From Hypomesus transpacificus (lineage: Eukaryota; Chordata; Actinopteri; Osmeriformes; Osmeridae): a stretch of 64,000 bases of DNA. The first letter of the stretch is position 1. The number at the start of each line of letters is the position of its first letter. The stretch lies in contig NC_061082.1 in the NCBI RefSeq assembly GCF_021917145.1, positions 10,452,237 through 10,516,236 on the forward strand. Reading direction: 5' to 3'. The notes beneath the pieces are model-generated. The model was given only the letters and a program-made list of their open reading frames with translations. It was not told the DNA's origin and did no database searches. The translations under genes and the position numbers were made by a program. Shown piece by piece: positions 796 through 59,240 of this stretch.

Positions 796-3700
796 ACATG
801 TGGGAAGTACCGTTTGAGGAGATCTCGGAGCTGAAGTGGCTGGGCAGTGGGGCACAGGGGGCCGTCTTCTTGGGGAAGTACCACTCAGAGGAGCTGGCCA
901 TCAAGAAGGTCCGCGAGCAGAAAGAGACCGACATCAAACACCTCCGCAAGCTCAAGCACCCTAACATCATCGGCTTCAAGTGGGTCCACCTCACCACTCC
1001 CTTCTCACACACCTCCACACACACTCATGCTCCTCCGGTAGATATAAGTTATCACATCAAGAGAGTGTTTCTATTCTGGTCCTGTTGCTATTCAGACATG
1101 GTAGACAGTTACTGTTAACTAGCACCTGGGTTAAATTGTGGGCACTAAAATCCTCCCATCTTTACTCCCCCCTCCTCCCCTCTCTCTCCTCCCCCATATC
1201 CCTCCCCCTCCTCCCTCCCATATCTCCTCTCTGCCCCCTCTATATGTACGCTTTGCACCCCGACTCCCCCCCTCCCTTATCTCACGTCCCTCCCACATTA
1301 TCTCTCCTCCCCCCAGGGGGGTGTGCACCCAGGCCCCATGCTTCTGCATCCTGATGGAGTACTGTGCCCAGGGCCAGCTGTACGAGGTGCTGCGCGCCGG
1401 CCGCAAGGTCACCCCCTCCCTCCTGGTGGACTGGGCATCTGGCATCGCCAGCGGCATGAACTACCTGCACCTCCACAAGATCATCCACAGGGACCTCAAG
1501 TCCCCCAAGTGAGTGGGCTCCTCAGATCACTTGAGGTGTGGGGATATGGCAACTGGTTGTACTCTGCTGTATAAGTATGCTCTTATTGTTCTGTACACAG
1601 CTGCTATCTGCATATGTACTGATCTGTTCTACAGAGAGCTGCTGTCTAGTCATGTGCTATTGATAGCTCCAGTATAGATAAGTACAGTTTTGATAGAAAG
1701 CTATGGTCTAAAGATGGACTGTCCTGTTGTATAAAGAGCTGCAGTCTAGAGATGAAAAGTAGTTCCATAGAAAGCTACAGTCTAGATGTGCTGTCTTGTT
1801 CTATAGAAACCTCCAGTCAAATGTACAGGACTGTTCTGGTGTTCTGGTCTGCCAGACCTGCCTCCTCAGCTTGCTTCAACCCTGTTAATCAATGCCATTT
1901 ACATGGATCTGCAGCAGTGCTGATCCCAGCGTTAGTCAGCAGATCCAGGGATGTCTGCAGTGAACCTTTTTGTTTCCCCCCCAACATAGTCCTCGTAGAG
2001 CTCAGAACAACATGCACAAACATTAAGGTCAAACGAATCGTATGTATGTTTTCTACATCTGAACTGACTGAAGGTTTCTACTTCCTCCATTTGTGTCCCC
2101 TCCTCAGCGTGTTGGTCACTCACAACGACACTGTGAAAATCTCAGACTTTGGAACCTCCAAAGAGCTCAGTGACAAGAGCACCAAGATGTCGTTTGCCGG
2201 TACGGTTGCCTGGATGGCCCCCGAGGTGATCCGGAACGAACCAGTGTCTGAAAAAGTGGACATCTGGTGAGTGAGAAAATATCAGATAATCTTACCTGTC
2301 TGGTGTAGACAGTGAGGAAGCAGGTCTGTTCGACGCTGTGTGACATTGTGTCACTGTTCCTGTATGTTTGTGTGTGTGATGGTGTGTGTATCCTCGTGTA
2401 TGATTGTATGTGTGCGCAGGTCATTTGGCGTGGTGCTTTGGGAGTTGCTGACAGGAGAGATCCCGTACAAGGATGTGGACTCGTCTGCCATCATCTGGGG
2501 CGTGGGCAGTAACAGCCTACACCTCCCTGTGCCTTCTACCTGTCCCGACGGCTTCAAGCTGCTCATGAAGCAGACATGGTGAGGAACATGGCTTAGATGT
2601 TCTACTTCAACTTAGGGATGGGATTTCTAAATGAGCAAAAGCGATCAGTCTGAGTTTTACTATCCATATCTAGCTTCGGTTTCGGCTTATCAACCTTATT
2701 AAAGCTTGGTCGATACGTTAAAGCCTCAGTTTGATATTTCCCGGCATGACCTAACTCTCAGTTAGTAAGTAGTAAGCCTTCACTAGTCATCCTAGATCAA
2801 GATTGCTAGCAACGCCACCAGTGTAATTTTACAACAATAATTTTACAGCACGAGACATGAAACTTGAACAACAAATCGAATTGGTTACCTGCAGAATGGG
2901 TCATCAAATATATAATTAATTAGCATCGGCATGAATGTGGTCCGCTTAGACAAAATACACTCCACATCGAAAATTCCGTCAGACCAACGCAAATGTGCTT
3001 CAAGGTCAAATAGCTAATCAAATACAAGTTAAACTACAATTCTAAATATCGCAAGAATGCGATTTATATGATGGCTTATATACAATACAACAACCAGACA
3101 TTTAATTGACTTTAATTCAAATGTAAGTATACCGCGGTTGAAACGGTATAGCCAAATCTCTCCCTTCGCCCCCTCTCCTTTCCAGGCAGGGTAAGCCCAG
3201 GAACAGGCCGTCCTTCAGGCAAATCCTCCTCCACCTCGACATTGCCTCTGCAGACATACTGGGAGCCCCTCAGGAGACGTACTTCAAGTCCCAGGTCCCA
3301 GAACCACAACCATAACAATCAGAAATGGAACCAACATTTTATTGATTGGGATTAGAACCACATCAGAATCTAAATCAAAACAGACTAAATGGAATTAGAA
3401 CCAGAATTATGACTCAAACTAGAATGAGACAGAAGCAATTTCTGTCGCAATTTCCCACACAGAAGTATTAAAAGCTTGTCTTCAGATGAGTGCACACTCA
3501 CTATAGATCACATGATATTCACTATTACAGTCCCAATTAAATTACATTTTCAATGACTACACATACAGGAAGTACATACTTTCACATGAGTCATGCTGTA
3601 GTTCTACTTGGCTTTATACATATCTGGACTAGGCTGTACTGAGCTAAATACAGTTTGATGTGATTGAATGGGACCATTTGTGTGTGTGTGTGTGTGTAAC

Positions 3701-6700
3701 AGGCGGAGTGGAGGGAGGAGGTGAAGAAGCACTTTGAGAAGATAAAGAGTGAAGGGACCTGCATCCACCGCCTGGATGAGGAGCTTATCCGACGCAGGAG
3801 GGATGAACTCAGGTGATGGAGGAAGGGAGAGAAAGATAGTGATAGAAGGAAGGGAAGAGAGAGAGTGAGGGAGAGTAAGAGAGAGAGAGAAAGAGTGAGG
3901 GAGTTACATTTACATTTACATTTAGTCATTTAGCAGACGCGCTTATCCAGAGCGACTTACAGTAATTACAGGGACATTCCCCCCGAGGCAAGTAGGGTGA
4001 AGTGCCTTGCCCAAGGACACAACATCATGTGGCACGGCGGGGAATCGATCCGGCAACCTTCTGATTACTAGCCCGACTCCCTCACCGCTCAGCCATCTGA
4101 CTCCCCTGAGTTGGCTTTACGGTGACTGATGGTGCCTGTCCCTCCCCCCCAGACATGCGCTGGACATCCGGGAACACTATGAGCGGAAGCTGGAGAGAGC
4201 CAACAACCTGTACATGGAGCTGAGCGCCATCATGCTGCAGCTGGAGGTCCGAGAGAAGGAACTCATGAAGTACGTCCTGACCTCTGACCCTGGTTCTGTC
4301 CACTGACTCCTGTAGCAGAGAGAACTAGCTGGAACTCAATTTCACCTCATTTTAATCTGTCTCTGTCTTTGTGTATTTATGTTTAAACTATCTCTATGTC
4401 TATATATTTATATAGACTTTATATATATTCGTGTTCAGTGTTCCAACCTGTAGAGGCCAGCCCCACACAATGTAGAGACTCCCTCCTACCCCATGAAACC
4501 ATAATGTCGAACTCACTGTATAATTCAGGAACTATTCAATCAAAGTGTCACAATAGGATTATTGTAAACTGTATTACACTGTGCCTTAACTGGATGCGAG
4601 CGTCCGACTATCGCGTCGCATCGGACGCTCTCAGTCCACACTGAATCCGTAAGTTTTACTTTTGTTACGTCATGAAAACTAACCATTTTACTATGACACT
4701 GTATGATACAGAGCTTTCAATGCAAGCGTCAAAATTTTTTTTGAAACAGGGCGTCCAACAATAAGGTTGCGCCGCGTCGCGCTGCTCAGCGTTGCGTTGC
4801 TCAACGTTTCGTTGCTCAACGTTGCGTTGCTCAACCGTGCGTCCAGTTTGGACATTCCAATAGAAGACAAGGCAGTCTAACTGCTTTTAGTCACTCACGT
4901 CACATCCATTTGGGACATGGTGTTAGTTTTACAGTACTAGAATGATACAAAAGAATGTCTCCCATAGTCGGGCCAGACTCCAGACATCTTAAGGGTAATA
5001 CTGAAGTATATCTGTTTATGTCTAAGCCACTAAGCCAGCAACCCTGGCCTGGTTCCGGGGTCTCAGACAGCTTTGCACAACAGTAGTCTGTCTACAATAA
5101 CTCTCTCAGGCCTTCTGACCCAGTTTCACAACAACAAACAGATTTTACCCACTTTGCAGGTAACACTTTACACTGCAGTCTGGCCCACGGCTTCACAACT
5201 TCCACTCTCAGTACTTTAGAGCCATTGTGAGGTGGCTTTGTGGTGTACAGAGAGAGAGACACCTCTCACTGACGCCTAGGAAAAGCCTCAGTGTGATACA
5301 ACCAAAATAATTGAAGGAATGGGGTGATCTACAAGAGTTACCCCGCAAAGCATTGCAAGGTTAACAGGTGAACATGGCAGCTGTGCCCTGTAACAGCGTG
5401 GGTACCCTGTGCTTCCAGAAGGGAGCAGGTGGTGGAGAAGAAGTACCCGGGGAACTACAAGCGCCACCTGGTCCGGCCCATCGTCAGGCCGAACGCAGTG
5501 GAGAAGCTCATCAAGAAGAAGAGCAGCTTGACTCACAAGGCCGGGACGGTGGCCGCTAAGAGGTCAGAGTTTCCCCAGCCTGGTCACTCTGCAGGGAACT
5601 CAGATGTTCCTGTTTGATGCTTAGGTCATATTGCTATCTAGTTGTATTGTTATCTAGTTGAAGTGACATGTAGTAAAGTTTAGAGGCTTACAGATGCACA
5701 ACATACAGAGCCTCTTCTCTCTAGCTCACAGAGGGTTTTGTTTAAATATTGTTTTGTTGTGGGAGAGAACGTATAGCAATGTGAAGTGTCAAGCATAAGC
5801 CTAGTTGGAGTACAGCATAGAGGCCTACTAAAGAACACCATTGTCACCCCTATAGGCCTGACCTGCTTCGTTCTGATGGCATCCCCAGCATGGAGGTCCT
5901 CCCCTCCCCCTCCCCCCTCTCCGGCAGCCCCAAGGTCTCCACACCTCCAGGGAAGACCCGCTACCGCAGCAAGCCGCGGCACCGCCGTGCCAACAGCAAG
6001 GGCAGCCACAATGACTTCCCCGGTGTGCTGAAGTCCAGTGCGGGGCCATGCGAGGAGCAGCAGCCCCTCCAACTCCACCAGCACCACCACCCCCTGCCAC
6101 TAGAGTGCCCTCTGCTGCCCCTCCAGGCCCGCCAGAACGCTGTGGCGACCTGTGCCAACAACCTGCGCTACTTCGGGCCAGCCGCCGCCCTCCGCAGCCC
6201 GCAGACCGACCACCTGCAACGCCGTGTCTCCGGGTCTGGCCCGGACCTCATCCCCACGGACTCCTGCCAGCGGACTGCATCCTCTAGTTCGGGTGCCAGC
6301 TCCGGACTGGTTCCGGGTTCCAGTGCCGGGACAGTGTGCCCTTGCTGCCAGGCGCACCCCTTTCCAGGCTGCCTGCAGTGCCAGAAGACCCCCCTGGCAC
6401 CCAGCCACCCCCAACAGCCCCAGTACTCCCTGCTCAGCACCTATGAGGCCGCGCCGCCCGCCACGCCCCGGGTCCCAGACCCAGGCGAGGCCCAGGAGAA
6501 GGCCCAACCTGAGAGGCAGGAGGCGCCTCGCCTCGTCCTGCCCTCTGGCTTGCCTCGCACACTCAGACCCCTCAGGAAGGTGAGCACTGAGAGAGCATGG
6601 CCACTGGGTGTCTGAATGTGTGTGTGGGTGTTTGCATGTATGGCCCTGGGTGTTTGTGTAGTTACAGGAGTGTGTGTGTGTGTGCGTGTGTATGGCCCTG

Positions 6701-29074: not shown

Positions 29075-30190
29075 TTGTTAACATGGGGCCTGTTCACAGT
29101 CACGTTTATTGAAGCAAGCGCATGATCAGGTAGAGGGTCAGAGAAGTGTGTGCGTCTTGGTTGTGCCAGGCTGCCAGCACCGTTCTACAGCTCCACACCA
29201 GGAATAAACCATTACAGGTTACGTTTTAGGGCCATTTAAACATGTTCAGGAAAAACAGTGTTTTATAAAGCCTAAAACACTGCAGTTCCATGAGGACAGT
29301 TCTATCAAATGGCAATGTCCCGCCTCTTTACATTTAAAATGAAATGCGCATTTCATTTTAAATGAAAAGAGGCGGGACATAAGCAGTTTTATCAAAGTCC
29401 CGCCTCTTTACATTTAAAATGAAATGCACATTTCATTTTAAATGAAAAGAGGCAGGATATAAGCAGTTCTATCAAAGTCCCGCCTCTTTACATTTAAAAT
29501 GAAATGCACATTTCTTTTCCTTTGAAAAGAGGCGGGACATAACCAGTTGCACAGACCTGTCCTTATTGGACTGCAATGTTTTACTCTTGGAGCACTGTGA
29601 TTGGACACTGTGTTTGATAGCAAACTGTCAGACCTGAGCTGTCAATCAAGGAGCAGACATATTCAGTCTTATTGAAATGCAAATGGTCCACTTTGAAAAC
29701 GACTGAACCAGACATTTTCTTGTTAACATGTGGCCTGTTCTCAGTCAAGTTCATTGAAGTAAGCGCATGATCAGGTAGAGGGTCAGAGAAGTGTGTGTGT
29801 TTTGGTTGTGCCATGCTGCCAGCACCGTTCAACAGCTCAATACCAGGCATAAACCATTACAGGTTACATTTTAGGGCCATTTAAACATGTTCAGGAAAAA
29901 ACTATGTTTTATAAAGCCTAAAACACTGCAGTTCCATTAGGACAGCTCTATCAAATGGCTTATGTCCCGCCCCTTTTCATTTAAAATGAAATGCGCATTT
30001 CTTTTCCTTTGAAAAGAGGCGGGACTTTGATAAAACTGCTTATGTCCCGGCTCTTTACATTTAAAATGAAATGCGCATTTCATTTTAAATGTAAAGAGGC
30101 GGGACTTTGATAAAACTGCTTATGTCCCGCTTCTTTTCATTTAAAAAGAAATGTGCATTTCATTTTAAATGTAAAGAGGCGGGACTTTGA
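29075..30190. repeat. 645-bp-spaced duplication carrying two palindrome arrays
   Basis: A segment starting at 29075 ('ttgttaacatg.ggcctgttc') recurs from 29720 with about 90 percent identity by eye over roughly 200 bp ('gcgcatgatcaggtagaggg', 'gggccatttaaacatgttca'). Each copy is followed by a 222-bp array of three palindromes: 29317-29538 and 29964-30185. In both arrays the palindromes are 62 bp and repeat every 80 bp. The arms read gtcccgcctcttt...aaagaggcgggac around a central 'aaatgcgcattt' or close variant. The 18-bp spacer is ataagcagttttatcaaa in the first array and its exact reverse complement in the second. No protein is encoded. Confidence 0.85.
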
Positions 30191-30895
30191 TTTACGTGTT
30201 TGGCTGCATATTTTCAGTTAGCAGATGGTACTGTTTGAATCACAATTCCATCTGAAAAATACTAACGGTAACACAGCTGACGCACGCCCTACAATTTCCC
30301 CCATAAATTGTACCATCTCTAGTTCCCCTTTCAAGTAATAAGCCCCTGTGTTCAAGTGTTGAGCATTAAATTAGCTGCATGGTCAGTAGAGATCTTGGGA
30401 CGAAATTGTGTTTGTGTAAATGTTTTATGTAGTTAGATGGTCTGAGGAGAATGAGTGGAGTTGGTGAGTTGCAGTCATTCGCCATAGTTCTAGTACTAAT
30501 GCGAGGCTAGTCTCCATAGATATCTATATTATGTCTATGGATATCTATGCCTATAGTCTCCTCCACGTCTCCCCAATGTGACGTCATCACCAAATTGCGC
30601 TAAAATGCCACTGCTAACACCATAAACGACAAAAACTGGTCTTTAACACCATTTAGAGACACCATTTGGAGATTTTTTTAATTATACACATATCTTGAGT
30701 GCTTCATGTACCCATTTATCAACAGTGATGTTTAACCTGCAATATGGCCTTTAAGTCACGCTCAGAAATGTGTCATTTGCATATTAAAATCACAAGAAAA
30801 TCGAGCCGGGGGCACGCCCCCCCCCCCCCCCACCCCCGTAAATGACACTGTCACCTTTTTTACTCTGAGGAGTTTGCAGGTCTGGCTTTGGCATT
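30191..30895. other. Gene-free spacer in the repeat island
   Basis: There is no coding signal. It contains a C run (30819-30831) and a short internally repeated stretch around 30510-30562 ('tagatatctat', 'ctatggatatctatg'). Confidence 0.5.
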
Positions 30896-31026
30896 CCCAG
30901 CTAACACATGAGTTGCGGCAACGTTGCCAGTAAGTGCTCAGTTGGTAACCCGCGACGTTACCTTCTGGCAACGTCGTGGCAACGTCGTAGCAACGTTATA
31001 AAGGGAATGTTGCCAGTTGGTCCCAT

Positions 31027-31560
31027 GGGCAACGTTGCCACGACGTCGTACCTTGGTCGGCTGGTTACGTTATTTTTAGACCAGTGGGCAACGTTGCCGC
31101 GACGTCGTACCTTGGTCCACTGGTTACGTTATTTTTAGACCAGTGGGCAACGTTGCCGCGACGTCGTACCTTGGTCCGCTGGTAACGTCATTTTTAGGTC
31201 CGTGGGCAACGTTGCCGCGACGTCGTACCTTGGTCGGCTGGTTACGTCATTTTTTGGTCCCATGGACGACGTTGCCGCGACGTCGTACCTTGGTCGGCTG
31301 GTAACGTCATCTTTTGGTCCGTGGGCAACGTTGCCGCGACGTTGTACCTTGGTCGGTTGGTTACGTTATTTTTTGGTCCGTGGGCAACGTTGCCGCGACG
31401 TTGTACCTTGGTCAGCTGGTTACGTTATTTTTTGGTCCCATGGACAACGTTGCCGCGACGTTGTACCTTGGTCGGCTGGTTACCTTATTTTTAGACCCTT
31501 GGACAACGTTGCCGCGACGTCGTCCCTTGGTCGGCTGGTTACCTTATTTTTGTCGCAGGA
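31027..31560. repeat. 59/60-bp tandem array, nine units (left subterminal)
   Basis: Units start near 31027, 31086, 31145, 31204, 31264, 31323, 31382, 31442 and 31501. Each has the core 'gggcaacgttgccgcgacgt' and 'taccttggtcggctggttac', then T-rich DNA. The alternation of 59- and 60-bp steps comes from single-base indels in the T tract. Long plus-strand open frames here arise from the repeat and are not genes. Confidence 0.95.
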
Positions 31561-33434
31561 CAGCGGTTCTTGACTGCAATATAGTGTAAATGTAGACACT
31601 GCATGTAATTCATGTGCTGCTCAGCTCCAGCAGGTCATTGGTCATCAATGTTCTCATATGCAGACACATAGTGTAAATTAAAAAAGACAGAATGTGGAAT
31701 ATAATTTAGTCTTTCATTCTTTACTATAAACATGTACAAAAGCAATCAATGTGTGATGAGTAACATGATTAAGCAAACATTATTTGTAGGCTATAGCACA
31801 CCAAAGCTGTATGACACACAATGCAAATTTGTGCTCCAATAGTTTTGTAATACAAAATTGTTAAATGTGACCAAAAGGTAAGCGACTCTTAAGAGTTTCA
31901 TTTTCAAAGACAAGTCATCACAGAATATTACAATTCTTCCTTAGCAAACCTGCCCCTCAGTCTGCCCCTGAGCAACAACTTTGCGCATGCCCATTTCAAC
32001 GCATTGCTGAAACTGGGCTTCCTAAACAGTTTTTGCCGGGGTCCTACCGTCTTTCACACAATGGATTTTACCTGGAAATAAGTTACTTCAAAGGTGAGTT
32101 TCTTTACAGACATAGTTTTAAATATATAAACATATTTTTAGAAATTGGATGGGGCATAAAGGTTTGAAATTGAGTTATTTATAGCGTTATATCAGATTCA
32201 CATTGTTTACGTTAGGATTTCGCTAGCTAGGTTAAACCCTCCAGAAAGTTATTTTGAAATACTGAAAATGCATACATGTTATCAAAGTTTAGCGTCTGAT
32301 AAATCACCCTCAAAAGAATCAGTGAAAATAAACGTTCAGAACTGTTAGAAAACCCTGTCCCAAAATAGTTTATTTAGCTACAGTAGCTAGCCCTGAATTT
32401 TCAAAGACGCTAGCGCGTGGCTGATCACGTTCACAGTCGGTCATGGCATGCACAACAATGGCGTCTGTAAAAGTATCATGTCACTAATTCTTCCAATTTG
32501 TACATGACATTTGTTTTTGGATACGTTTATTCGTTTTAACCTTTAGATGCGTGAGTTCTAAATATTTAAGACACTTTCACCAGAGTACGTGAGTTATTTT
32601 TCCAAAACGGAAGCTATGTAGCTTTAATTAGCTTCCGTTACCTAGCAACCTAAGATAATACTCGTACCAATGCTACTACTTGCTAGTGTTACTTGTTAGC
32701 CTACTAATTGTACATTTTGAAGCCATACTGTAGTGTTTATCATATAGTTATTGCCCATCGGAAAATAGTTGGTTGGAATGTTCAGAATCACACATGTGCT
32801 ACGCTGTGGGGCCCTGCTTTCGAACATATCACATATACGATGCTTCTTCAAAATCAATACTAATAGGCTACTGTGTACGTAAACTACATTCCACTTTCAT
32901 TTCTGTACAGGTGATCCGACCACCATCACAAGTACTGTGTCCCTTGGAAATTATGGTAAAGTAATGAATGACCGTTTATAACAGTGACAATAATTGAGCC
33001 ATGGCAACCCTAAAGGCTATGCTTTGAAGCAAAAGTATGACTTAAAACGTTTGCATCACCAGATGCCATACCTCTAGGTGTCAACTCTGGTCTGGTGGAG
33101 GAGAACCCATAGGGCGCCCCGGAAAACAGCTGGCAGCCAGGCAAGTGCAAATATAAGACACTCAAAAAAATATTCAAACCATTGCCATTGTAAGGCATAC
33201 CTAATTGTAAGGCATACTTAAGTTGTTCTGATCGTGGGGGGAAACATATTTGTCAAAACAACAAATGTTGTCTTACTAATGCTTTGTATACCCCATTCAG
33301 CTGTACCATCTTGGGCAAAGACCAATCGAGGTAACATTTGTTATGTACATCAATGTTACAGCTAATCTAGAAGAACCACAGTGTATGCCAATCATGCAAA
33401 CTCTTGTAAACTTGTTTTACTTGTCTTTAATTAC

Positions 33435-33628
33435 AGACACATTACAGGTTATGCTCCGGAAGATGGAGACATTGGAAGAGAACCAGCGAGAGGCTCTCCT
33501 GTTCAGGCGACCACAGGGCAGACACACTGAAGAGGTGCCAGTGATGGACCTACAGGTGGCCCAAACACAGGCTGAACTTCAAGACCTTGAGGAGCGCCTT
33601 ACGGTGCTGGAGTTGCGAAAGAGAGCGG
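33435..33628 (+). CDS. Exon-like coding remnant of the 4.2-kb element (coiled-coil; possibly DUF4806-like)
   Basis: An open block between the acceptor 'ttaattacag' and the donor 'gcggtaag' encodes a hydrophilic, heptad-like protein segment with LQVMLRKMETLEENQREALL and VAQTQAELQDLEERLTVLEL. The second part recalls the start of the DUF4806 domain, found in fish proteins that often sit in repeats. That is a weak, memory-based resemblance. Downstream a second block (33719-33821) may continue it (CDEVEDGTGRESCGAP). No complete protein can be assembled. It lies inside the inverted-repeat-bounded element. Confidence 0.35.
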
Positions 33629-34234
33629 TAAGTGTTTGGAGATCCCACAAACTATGGCTTACACGCATTCAACGTTCACATTGGTGCTGACAATAAGTTC
33701 ATGACTTCTAATTCCAGACGCTGTGATGAAGTAGAAGACGGGACTGGGAGAGAAAGCTGTGGAGCTCCGCATAGAGGAAACACTCAAACACACCCCGGCA
33801 GCCCATTCAAAACCAGCCAGGTGAATGAATCATGTTTGCAACTTCCATATCCAATCTTTCACGTGGCTATGACACAAATGTAGAATCACATAATATTTTA
33901 ATTGATGATGTATATTATTTTAGATGTGATTTTTTAAGACTTGTATAGCCCCTTTTCACACGTGCGATTATGTTAATCGAACACTAACTTATTTTGTGCT
34001 TCCTTGTCAGGGCCATCAGACAGGACTCATAGCGGGGACTGGAAGAAGATTTTAATTCATTTTTTGCACTTTGTTTGTTTGGCACTTTTGTTTTGCAGTG
34101 TTTGTTTTGCAGTGTTTTTTTCTTTGCAGTGTTTGTTTTGCAGTGTTTGTTTTGCAGTGGCACTTTTTATCACGTATGTATATATTTTGGCCATTTTAGT
34201 TTTTATTGTAAATGTTACATGCATACTTTGTGCA

Positions 34235-34386
34235 TTGTCATTTTAGCAGACGCTCTTATTTACAGTAAGTACAGGGACATTCCCTGGAGGAAAGTAAGGT
34301 GAAGTGCCTTGCCCAAAGACACATCATTTGGCAGCCTTCTGATTTAATAGCCTGATTCCCTAACCGCTCAGCCATCTGACTCCCTT
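34235..34386 (-). repeat. Truncated tRNA-derived SINE nested in the 4.2-kb element
   Basis: Carries the same body as the copy at 3905-4106 ('gtgaagtgccttgccca', 'accgctcagccatctgactc'), with the middle shortened. It shows that the host element is older than this insertion or its deletion. Confidence 0.8.
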
Positions 34387-34674
34387 TTAGTGTAGGTAGA
34401 GCACATATTTAAGATTCCTTTATGTTGAATGTATATACCTTCCTGCCAAAGTAAATTCCTTGTCTGTGCAAACTTTCATGGCGAATTAAACACTTTCTGA
34501 TTCTGAAATGCTGCCTCGTTTATGATTTAGCTTGAGTCAGGCTACACATCACACACATATTCCTCAGAACGTTGGCTATCTATTATACCAAAACAAGTAG
34601 CCTTCTGGGCAAATGAGGTCTGCATATGAAATATGTTACTTAATATTTAAGTAAATCATTAACGTCGCAGTTAC

Positions 34675-35030
34675 GTACTAGCAACGTCAGAAAGTTACGT
34701 TGCTAGGAGGTTGCGCTTACGGACTGGCAACGTCGGAAAATAACGTTGCCACGACGTTGCGGTTACGGACTGGCAACGTCACAAAACAACGTTGCTAGGA
34801 GGTCGCGGTTACCGACTAGCAACGTCGGAAAATAACGTTGCGACGACGTTGCGGTTACGGACTGGCAACGTCAGAAAGTTACGTTGCTAGGAGGTTGCGG
34901 TTACGGACTGGCAACGTCGGAAAATAACGTTGCCAAGACGTCGCGGTTACGGACTGGCAACGTCGGAAAATTAACGTTGCCGCAACGTTGCGGTTACGGA
35001 CTGGCAACGTCACAAGATGACGTTGCGGCA
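34675..35030. repeat. 46-bp tandem array, about eight units (right subterminal)
   Basis: The word 'ggactggcaacgtc' (or a one-base variant) recurs near 34721, 34767, 34813, 34859, 34905, 34951 and 34998, spaced 46 bp with one 47-bp step. Each unit also holds 'aacgttgc' and 'gcggttac'. The unit differs from the left array in length and order but shares its vocabulary. Confidence 0.95.
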
Positions 35031-35128
35031 ACGTACTGGCGCCCCACAGATGCACGGTCCCGCAACGTATGTTTGGTCAACGATTGACGTTGCGGCAACG
35101 TAAGGGCAACGTAACTGTGTTAGCTGGG

Positions 35129-36732
35129 TTGTTGCTATTGGCAGACACCTCGAGGCTCTTGAAATCAACCCTGCGCCTGATGAGTCTTGCATTATTTTGT
35201 GTCGCCTACATCATTGACAATAGTGTTTACACGAAATTCTTCGTTTTATCAATCACTCAGACACAATTACAAAATGTGTCAGAAATGTATCTGTTCTCAA
35301 AAAGTGGCTCCAAACCCCACACCATTCATGTAATTTACACTGTGAATGGTTGCTTGTTTTTACATTTAAACAAAATATGCGTTCTCTTCTACTATTCCCT
35401 AGTCAATTCAGTTTGGTTCCGAATTGGAATGGGAGGATACCGGATTAAAAAAAATGTAGGCCTATTACAGTTTTAATGTTGTACAACCATGCGACACAAG
35501 AACGTCAGTGCCCTCGTGAGATTATTTCAGGAAATGTTTCTTTTAGGTTTAGAAACGTGTCTTGTAACAAATTTGACGGTGTTTTTCTTTTTACTGTATT
35601 TTTATGAATTAGGATGATGGGGAAAAGATGGTGAAAGGGTCGAATGGTGAAAGGGTCGTAAATAAAAGCATATTAATTCTACGTGCATGTCTGTGATAGT
35701 ATAAAAGCATTTGGTGCATTTATGTAAACAAAAATAGCACCCAAGGCATTCGTTTGTTAAAAAAATAAAAATAAATCCGTAATATCAACTGAGATCACAC
35801 GGATTAAGATTTTAATCAGGAGTTTAGTGTTTGTATTTGGATTGATAGAAGTTGAGGGGCGGGTTTAGGGGTATTCTGGAATACAGTTTGCGGAGCGCAT
35901 CAGTCGCCTACTGTGAAAAAACACTGTGGTGTGTAGTCGAGCGTGCGCTCGGCGAATAGCCGAGATTTAGAATGAAATAACAAATGGGAATTTAATGCAT
36001 ATATTCTACCGCCTATTTGATGGTTTATACATTTCAGGTAAGACCAAAGAGCCTTTTAAATTTGTTTACGGATATTCCTCGCCGATAACCCTGTGGACAA
36101 AAGAGATGGTATGGGTGGGATATAAAGGGAGGGGGGGATCAGCTGTAAAAGAATAGGCTAGTAGCCTACATTGCTTGTTTAAGCTACGTGCTGTCAGTAT
36201 TTTCGCTTGTGTTAAATGCTAAGGCACATTATACCAAAACCTTAGAATCGCAATACGATTTATTAAGGAATATTTTCAATTGGTTATTTTTTTTAACATT
36301 CTCTGGCATGACCGTTTCCTGCTATAGACTCGCAACCGTATGCTGTAGCCTAGATGTGATTCGATCAAGGGTGTCGGCTCGTCTCTAATGCATAAACACA
36401 CGATCCAACATTATTTAAAACAAAATAACCCCTAGTTATATCGTTTTTAAAATCAATCGTGGTTTTAGATATATTTATTTAATTTATTATTGAGAGTAAG
36501 CCAAACGTGTCTTAAATATCTATTATGTATGAACACAGCTGTGCTATAATTACATTTTATGCGAACACAATTGCATGTAGTTGTGATACACAAGTGCACA
36601 ACTGCTCTTACATTCATAGAACAGATTTGATCAACTGATATACTTAGTAAATTTGTACTTTCTTCCATATTTAATCTCTAAACTTTCACTGAAGCATTAA
36701 AAGTATGTATATTTTTTCCCTCTCTTTCACAG
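35129..36732. other. tmem169 upstream region and non-coding first exon
   Basis: There is no coding ORF of note; the minus- and plus-strand ORFs here lack codon structure. A likely 5' UTR exon of tmem169 ends at 36037 with a strong donor (CAG|GTAAGA) and follows a GC-richer patch at about 35925-35970. The matching acceptor is the CACAG ending at 36732. Confidence 0.45.

Positions 36733-49965: not shown

Positions 49966-59240
<9,275 letters not shown>

Follow-up and report, generated by a model that had tools for sequence, protein, structure and literature searches.

A non-autonomous transposon of Hypomesus transpacificus with word arrays near both ends and its very probable place in the animal TRC branch of CACTA/EnSpm

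A 64,000-bp stretch of the Hypomesus transpacificus genome (NC_061082.1, positions 10,452,237 to 10,516,236; hereafter the window) possesses a 4233-bp element at 30896..35128 on the plus strand. This element, a DNA transposon, very probably belongs to the animal TRC branch of CACTA/EnSpm (CMC) as a non-autonomous member; it retains relic exons of the second gene of a longer TRC element and is presumably mobilised in trans. The assignment to TRC was made because CCC ends together with a 2-bp target-site duplication (TSD) form the published TRC signature, and because a relative with the same ends has DDE-type motifs. The extent of the whole element was established by internal sequence shared in 28 of 29 other pairs of ends, by TSDs and by the empty sites of other copies. 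A preliminary description of the window had proposed an undescribed transposon family. A mobile family with terminal inverted repeats (TIRs) is indeed present, while the idea of a new kind was dropped, since the CCC ends, the 2-bp TSD and the DDE-motif open reading frame (ORF) of the relative are those of the TRC branch. The element is a passenger transposon of an ordinary kind, and the enzymes that move it are probably those of a longer relative in the same genome.

The ends of the element were located by pattern search of the window and supported by genome-wide matches. The 13-bp TIR CCCAGCTAACACA is situated at 30896..30908 on the plus strand and at 35116..35128 on the minus strand. These are the exact inverted repeats that the preliminary description gave as the borders of a 4.2-kb element, and the boundaries proved exact. 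When up to one mismatch was allowed, the window contained two matches to CCCAGCTAACACA, which are the two TIRs themselves (chance expectation 0.07); at least two such matches were obtained in 1 of 100 shuffles of the window. Both ends start with CCC, as in the animal TRC branch. The flanks in the window show the dinucleotide TT at 30894..30895 and again at 35129..35130, forming the left and right TSD of 2 bp.

To the 13-bp end, 360 exact matches were found in the 437-Mb host genome (175 and 185 on the two strands), while the reversed pattern used as control gave 4 (1 and 3). Among 100 listed matches, from contigs C1-C10, every convergent pair spanning no more than about 9.5 kb was picked by eye, giving 29 pairs. 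Six of the remaining 42 listed matches (L001-L006) served as blast targets only, and the other 260 matches lay outside the list. As the pairs were selected by CCCAGCTAACACA, its presence at their ends follows from the selection. The internal content was compared among 30 copies, the window copy and the 29 pairs. In 28 of the 29 pairs it was this element, with 91-99% identity over the covered parts of a 3040-bp internal stretch, so the preliminary description's own ground for doubt, that no other copies might share both ends, fell away. An exact TSD of 2 bp, never longer, was present in 25 of the 29 fetched copies as well as in the window copy, in agreement with the animal TRC branch. TA was the commonest duplication, and AA, TT, TC, GA, GT, AT and CT were also observed.

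Empty sites were searched by comparing the joined flanks of the 30 copies with the sequences of the fetched loci. Spanning matches were obtained for four of them (L014, L016, L025 and L029). Paralogous empty sites, in which the 2-bp target occurs once, were recognised for three insertions. The empty site of L014 lies within the flank of L025 and that of L025 within the flank of L014, while the empty site of L016 lies within L023 and within the window at 51685-52009. This last stretch is a dispersed repeat which is empty in the window, and its relative at L016 holds the transposon insertion. In the case of L029, both flanks correspond to the left-end region, including the array, of other copies, and the junction aligns uncleanly; because of these flank matches L029 is read as a nested insertion. 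Further copies, duplications and empty sites, which the preliminary description had suggested looking for, were in this way all found.

Kimura two-parameter distances were calculated for the 210 pairs of 21 copies possessing the whole internal stretch, including the window copy. The median was 1.5%, the minimum 0.16% and the maximum 3.8%. These low distances suggest a recent spread of the family. Two individual copies showed unusual structures. The right flank of L037 (C9:18303362-18308240) corresponds to the array-bearing end of other copies, an additional right-hand 13-bp end is situated 0.7 kb further on, and no TSD is present; L037 is probably a fused pair. Copy L025 has a 1098-aa ORF nested in it (920-4213), which we take to be reverse-transcriptase-like.

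Translation of longer copies, also suggested in the preliminary description, revealed a transposase-like ORF. L026, a pair of 9519 bp with the same 13-bp ends, the TSD TC/TC and differing content, carries an ORF of 585 aa which reads D-D-CxxC-HxxxH-E, the arrangement of the CMC(T) group. In an alignment of five TRC-like ORFs, L026 and four relatives, D138, D214 and E454 were invariant in all five. The CxxC motif was present in four (not in L039) and the HxxxH motif also in four (not in L040). By these motifs the ORF reads like a DDE transposase, and its D/D/E residues would be the catalytic ones. It has at least 80 matched stretches in the genome with 30-100% identity (75 of 182 candidates scored). 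DUF4218 accompanies PF02992 in plant CACTA. Three of the four ORF relatives matched DUF4218 below the cut-off (E 1e-5, 0.0023 and 0.0032), and one of these three also showed a weak match to Plavaka (0.14); the other matches were weak and chance-like. Searches of viral contigs and phages gave no relatives of the transposase, and all PDB searches ended at E 0.18 or worse. A second L026-type copy, about 98% identical, was identified at C21:7974900-7985690 (L044 and L045). Its left end is degraded, and in place of its right end stands sequence belonging to the 4.2-kb family (95% identity across 433 bp).

Downstream of the 585-aa ORF, L026 possesses 14 exons with GT-AG borders, which were modelled by eye and joined without stops into a product of 375 aa. 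Exon 10 is doubtful as it leaves an intron of 17 bp, which leaves the match to DUF4806 at residues 259-324 unaffected. This match (E 1.4e-4, 22.6 bits) lies for about two thirds in exon 12. Two exons of the second gene have relic counterparts in the window element. A coiled-coil exon of 191 bp at 33437..33627 on the plus strand, preceded by AG and followed by GT, corresponds to exon 11 of L026, which is also 191 bp long (tblastn 56% identity, E 1e-15; 50% over 80 columns, E 7e-15). The exon-like block noticed earlier in the middle of the element is real, and it is a leftover exon, coding for a coiled coil, of the second gene of L026. A second relic exon at 33718..33820 on the plus strand corresponds to exon 13 and has an in-frame TAG in the window copy (tblastn 70% over 30 residues, E 4.7e-7). 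Neither a counterpart of exon 12, the DUF4806 core, nor a transposase-like stretch at E 1e-3 was detected in the window copy or in the 28 other family copies, in line with the earlier remark that no known transposase is visible. Because neither was detected in any of these, the 4.2-kb element is, as judged from its sequence, non-autonomous.

To the DUF4806 exon itself used as query, 22 genomic loci were found after merging two pieces. A transposase match was present within 10 kb at 13 of these loci, where it invariably lay upstream and shared the strand of the exon; the chance of such proximity is about 0.3% per locus. L038, an ORF relative with 47% identity, also pairs with a DUF4806 gene, while L041, a 43% relative, has no DUF4806 exon in the 2.8 kb after its ORF. 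A search of the genome with the Pfam DUF4806 profile gave zero matches, as in every control genome. DUF4806 has been called a BEN-type DNA-binding domain (PMC11075544, citing Pan et al. 2023), and a table for Hydra lists it as expanded, beside transposase domains (PMC7642931). In the available parts of the literature naming DUF4806, no link between this domain and transposons was found.

Tandem arrays are situated near both ends of the element. Tandem Repeats Finder (TRF) detected a left subterminal array at 31022..31551 (plus strand, 8.9 units of 59 bp), rich in GCAACGTTGC and GACGTCGT words, and a right subterminal array at 34662..35026 (plus strand, 7.9 units of 46 bp), which has words in common with the left one. 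The preliminary description had reported these two arrays, of 59/60 and 46 bp, as made of the same words in different periods, and both parts of that report held. Circularised TRF consensus units were compared with dinucleotide shuffles. The two units had 17 common 6-mers (shuffle mean 3.0), 12 common 7-mers (mean 1.0) and 4 common 9-mers (mean 0.06), numbers reached by none of 500 shuffles; 7 common 8-mers (mean 0.32) were reached by one shuffle and the single common 10-mer (mean 0.02) by 8 of 500. The word ACGTTG reaches a density of 35.7 per kb in the first 700 bp of the element and of 52.0 per kb in its last 500 bp, arrays included; the middle of the element has 0.7 per kb and the remainder of the window 0.33. 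The observed/expected CpG ratio is 1.43 and 1.81 at the two ends, 0.51 between them and 0.43 outside the element. Repeated subterminal motifs at both ends, a mark of CACTA/EnSpm, are present here.

The arrays were surveyed in 21 copies, the window copy and L009-L028. The left array of 59/60 bp was present in 18 of them (not in L018, L024 and L026) with 4.9-10.3 units, and the 46-bp array in 20 (not in L026) with 4.3-8.9 units. The 46-bp array of L027 is set back from the right end by about 1 kb of other sequence. By the coordinates of these copies no array reaches the TIR, contrary to what would be expected if the TIR pair were coincidental. In 500 bp at each end of L026, ACGTTG occurs 5 and 6 times, compared with means of 0.3 and 0.5 in 200 shuffles (maxima 2 and 3), and the longer ACGTTGC just 2 times and once. 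L026 has the words in scattered form, without tandem arrays; tandem amplification is therefore, among the copies seen, a feature of the non-autonomous family. Copies, TSDs, empty sites and the recurrence of the arrays all agree with a bounded mobile TIR element carrying subterminal word arrays.

In the proposed mechanism, the TRC transposase of relatives would cut at the CCC ends in trans, and the excised element would be joined to a target staggered by 2 bp. The ACGTTG-type end words are putative binding sites for the BEN-type DUF4806 partner, acting like TNPA, or for the transposase, and by amplifying them in tandem the element may have become a favourable substrate for proteins encoded elsewhere. 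The location of 13 of the 22 DUF4806 loci closely downstream of a transposase suggests, by analogy with TNPA in maize En/Spm, that the DUF4806 protein binds these words. A broader proposal, which we hold tentatively as plausible though short of likely, is that in animal TRC/CACTA elements the place of TNPA is taken by a BEN-type DUF4806 protein, which recognises the CpG-containing ACGTTG(C) words clustered at the ends, and that non-autonomous families have multiplied these words into arrays by which the protein is captured. If true, expansions of DUF4806 genes in animal genomes would be largely a transposon footprint, and BEN domains would gain a function in transposition. Its position beside CACTA-like transposases at 13 of 22 loci provides DUF4806, a domain of unknown function, with a candidate role open to testing and could also account for the word arrays. 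The element now has exact ends and duplications, and its family has empty sites.

Two other explanations of the arrays were considered. The words may bind the TRC transposase itself, while the DUF4806 partner serves otherwise, in regulation or targeting. Subterminal binding of the transposase is common in other superfamilies, which speaks for this option; we consider it possible but somewhat unlikely. Alternatively, the arrays may be passive, a once-useful word having been expanded by slippage or unequal exchange so that the number of units is irrelevant to movement. The wide range of unit numbers agrees with this, as do the intact 13-bp ends of L018 and L024, in which TRF found no 59-bp left array, and of L026, which has neither array. 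Drift alone does not predict, however, that two differing arrays use the same words, nor that ACGTTG is enriched in scattered form at the ends of L026, which is without such an array. Passive expansion is therefore regarded as unlikely.

Membership in another superfamily with similar ends, namely piggyBac (CCC, TTAA), Tc1/mariner (TA), Zisupton (8 bp) or hAT, is very improbable. TA is the commonest duplication here, and the duplication of Tc1/mariner is TA only; the seven other dinucleotides listed above do not fit it. Ends with CCC are also found in piggyBac (PMC2872659), but the duplications of the present family are exactly 2 bp and varied in sequence, not TTAA. The 8-bp duplication of Zisupton is absent as well, the longest match between flanks being 2 bp in 25 of the 29 copies and 0 in four. 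The protein of the same-ended relative L026, with its D-D-CxxC-HxxxH-E reading, also argues against these superfamilies. That the TIR pair flanks two satellite arrays by coincidence can practically be dismissed. The one shuffle in 100 with two near matches shows how such a pair could arise, and the 360 genomic matches against 4 of the control, the same content in 28 of 29 pairs and the empty sites of three copies rule it out.

Several observations count against the TRC assignment and the role given to DUF4806. The TSD is absent in four of the 29 copies (L010, L018, L031 and L037), and the empty site of the window copy, one of 26 among the 30 without a spanning match, was not found among the fetched loci. 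The L026 ORF matched no Pfam or NCBIfam family, and Transposase_21 (PF02992) was matched by none of the five TRC-like ORFs in a profile scan, which may miss distant members. The DUF4806 match of L026 is under the cut-off of 25 bits; exon 12 alone did not match DUF4806, and the core exon of L038 gave E 0.25. No transposase match lies within 10 kb of nine of the 22 DUF4806-exon loci; downstream of one of the nine, C9:15372600, a right-hand 13-bp end follows after about 0.9 kb. In the 11.2 kb fetched for L038, neither a convincing TIR nor an enrichment of ACGTTG was seen. L026 and the 4.2-kb family share 290 of 3040 internal positions, at 68%. L026 was ruled out as direct parent, as little aligns beyond the relic exons, and its scattered words without tandem arrays point the same way. 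No examined copy has both the transposase and the 59/46-bp arrays, and the direct autonomous parent was not found.

Other repeats were observed in and around the element. A short dispersed repeat, with approximate borders, lies inside it at 34292..34381 on the plus strand and matches the flank of L026 at 70%; the better match of that flank is at window positions 3988-4102. To the left of the element, window 29075-30185 contains a direct repeat whose two copies, each about 465 bp long, share 85% identity and are separated by 645 bp. Each copy ends in about three near-palindromic units of 80 bp (TRF 29313-29548 and 29958-30191).

Comparison with known systems was based on the available parts of the cited papers. 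TRC elements combine CCC ends with duplications of 2 bp (PMC1636069, DeMarco et al. 2006). SmTRC1 of Schistosoma mansoni and the elements of Aedes and Tribolium resemble the present family in their CCC-starting ends, the Aedes TIR CCCAGTCAAC being close to CCCAGCTAACACA, and in the 2-bp TSD, which SmTRC1 shows in 7 of 14 copies. The ORF is of 560 aa in SmTRC1 and 585 aa in L026. Deleted copies with truncated ORF and a tandem repeat near one end, the 3' end in SmTRC1, are further likenesses. The present family differs in having arrays near both ends with unequal periods and a DUF4806 second gene, and the Transposase_21 (PF02992) domain reported for SmTRC1 (PMC1636069) is undetected in L026. EnSpm-4N1_HM of Hydra (Spongebob), placed in the TRC elements of CACTA, has a 2-bp TSD and the TIR CCCAGCCAACATTGAC, which resembles CCCAGCTAACACA without being identical; arrays and a partner gene are unmentioned in the available part of that report (PMC4298943). 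Zebrafish genes with DUF4806 or BEN, discussed as possible chromatin factors, share their domain with the second gene of L026, and the available part of that account draws no link to CACTA transposons (PMC11075544). Maize En/Spm differs in its CACTA ends and in a 12-bp motif of other sequence. It is like the present system in its subterminal repeats, recognised there by TNPA, a second element-encoded DNA-binding protein for whose counterpart DUF4806 is the candidate here, and in its non-autonomous deletion derivatives, which are served in trans (PMC2613891).

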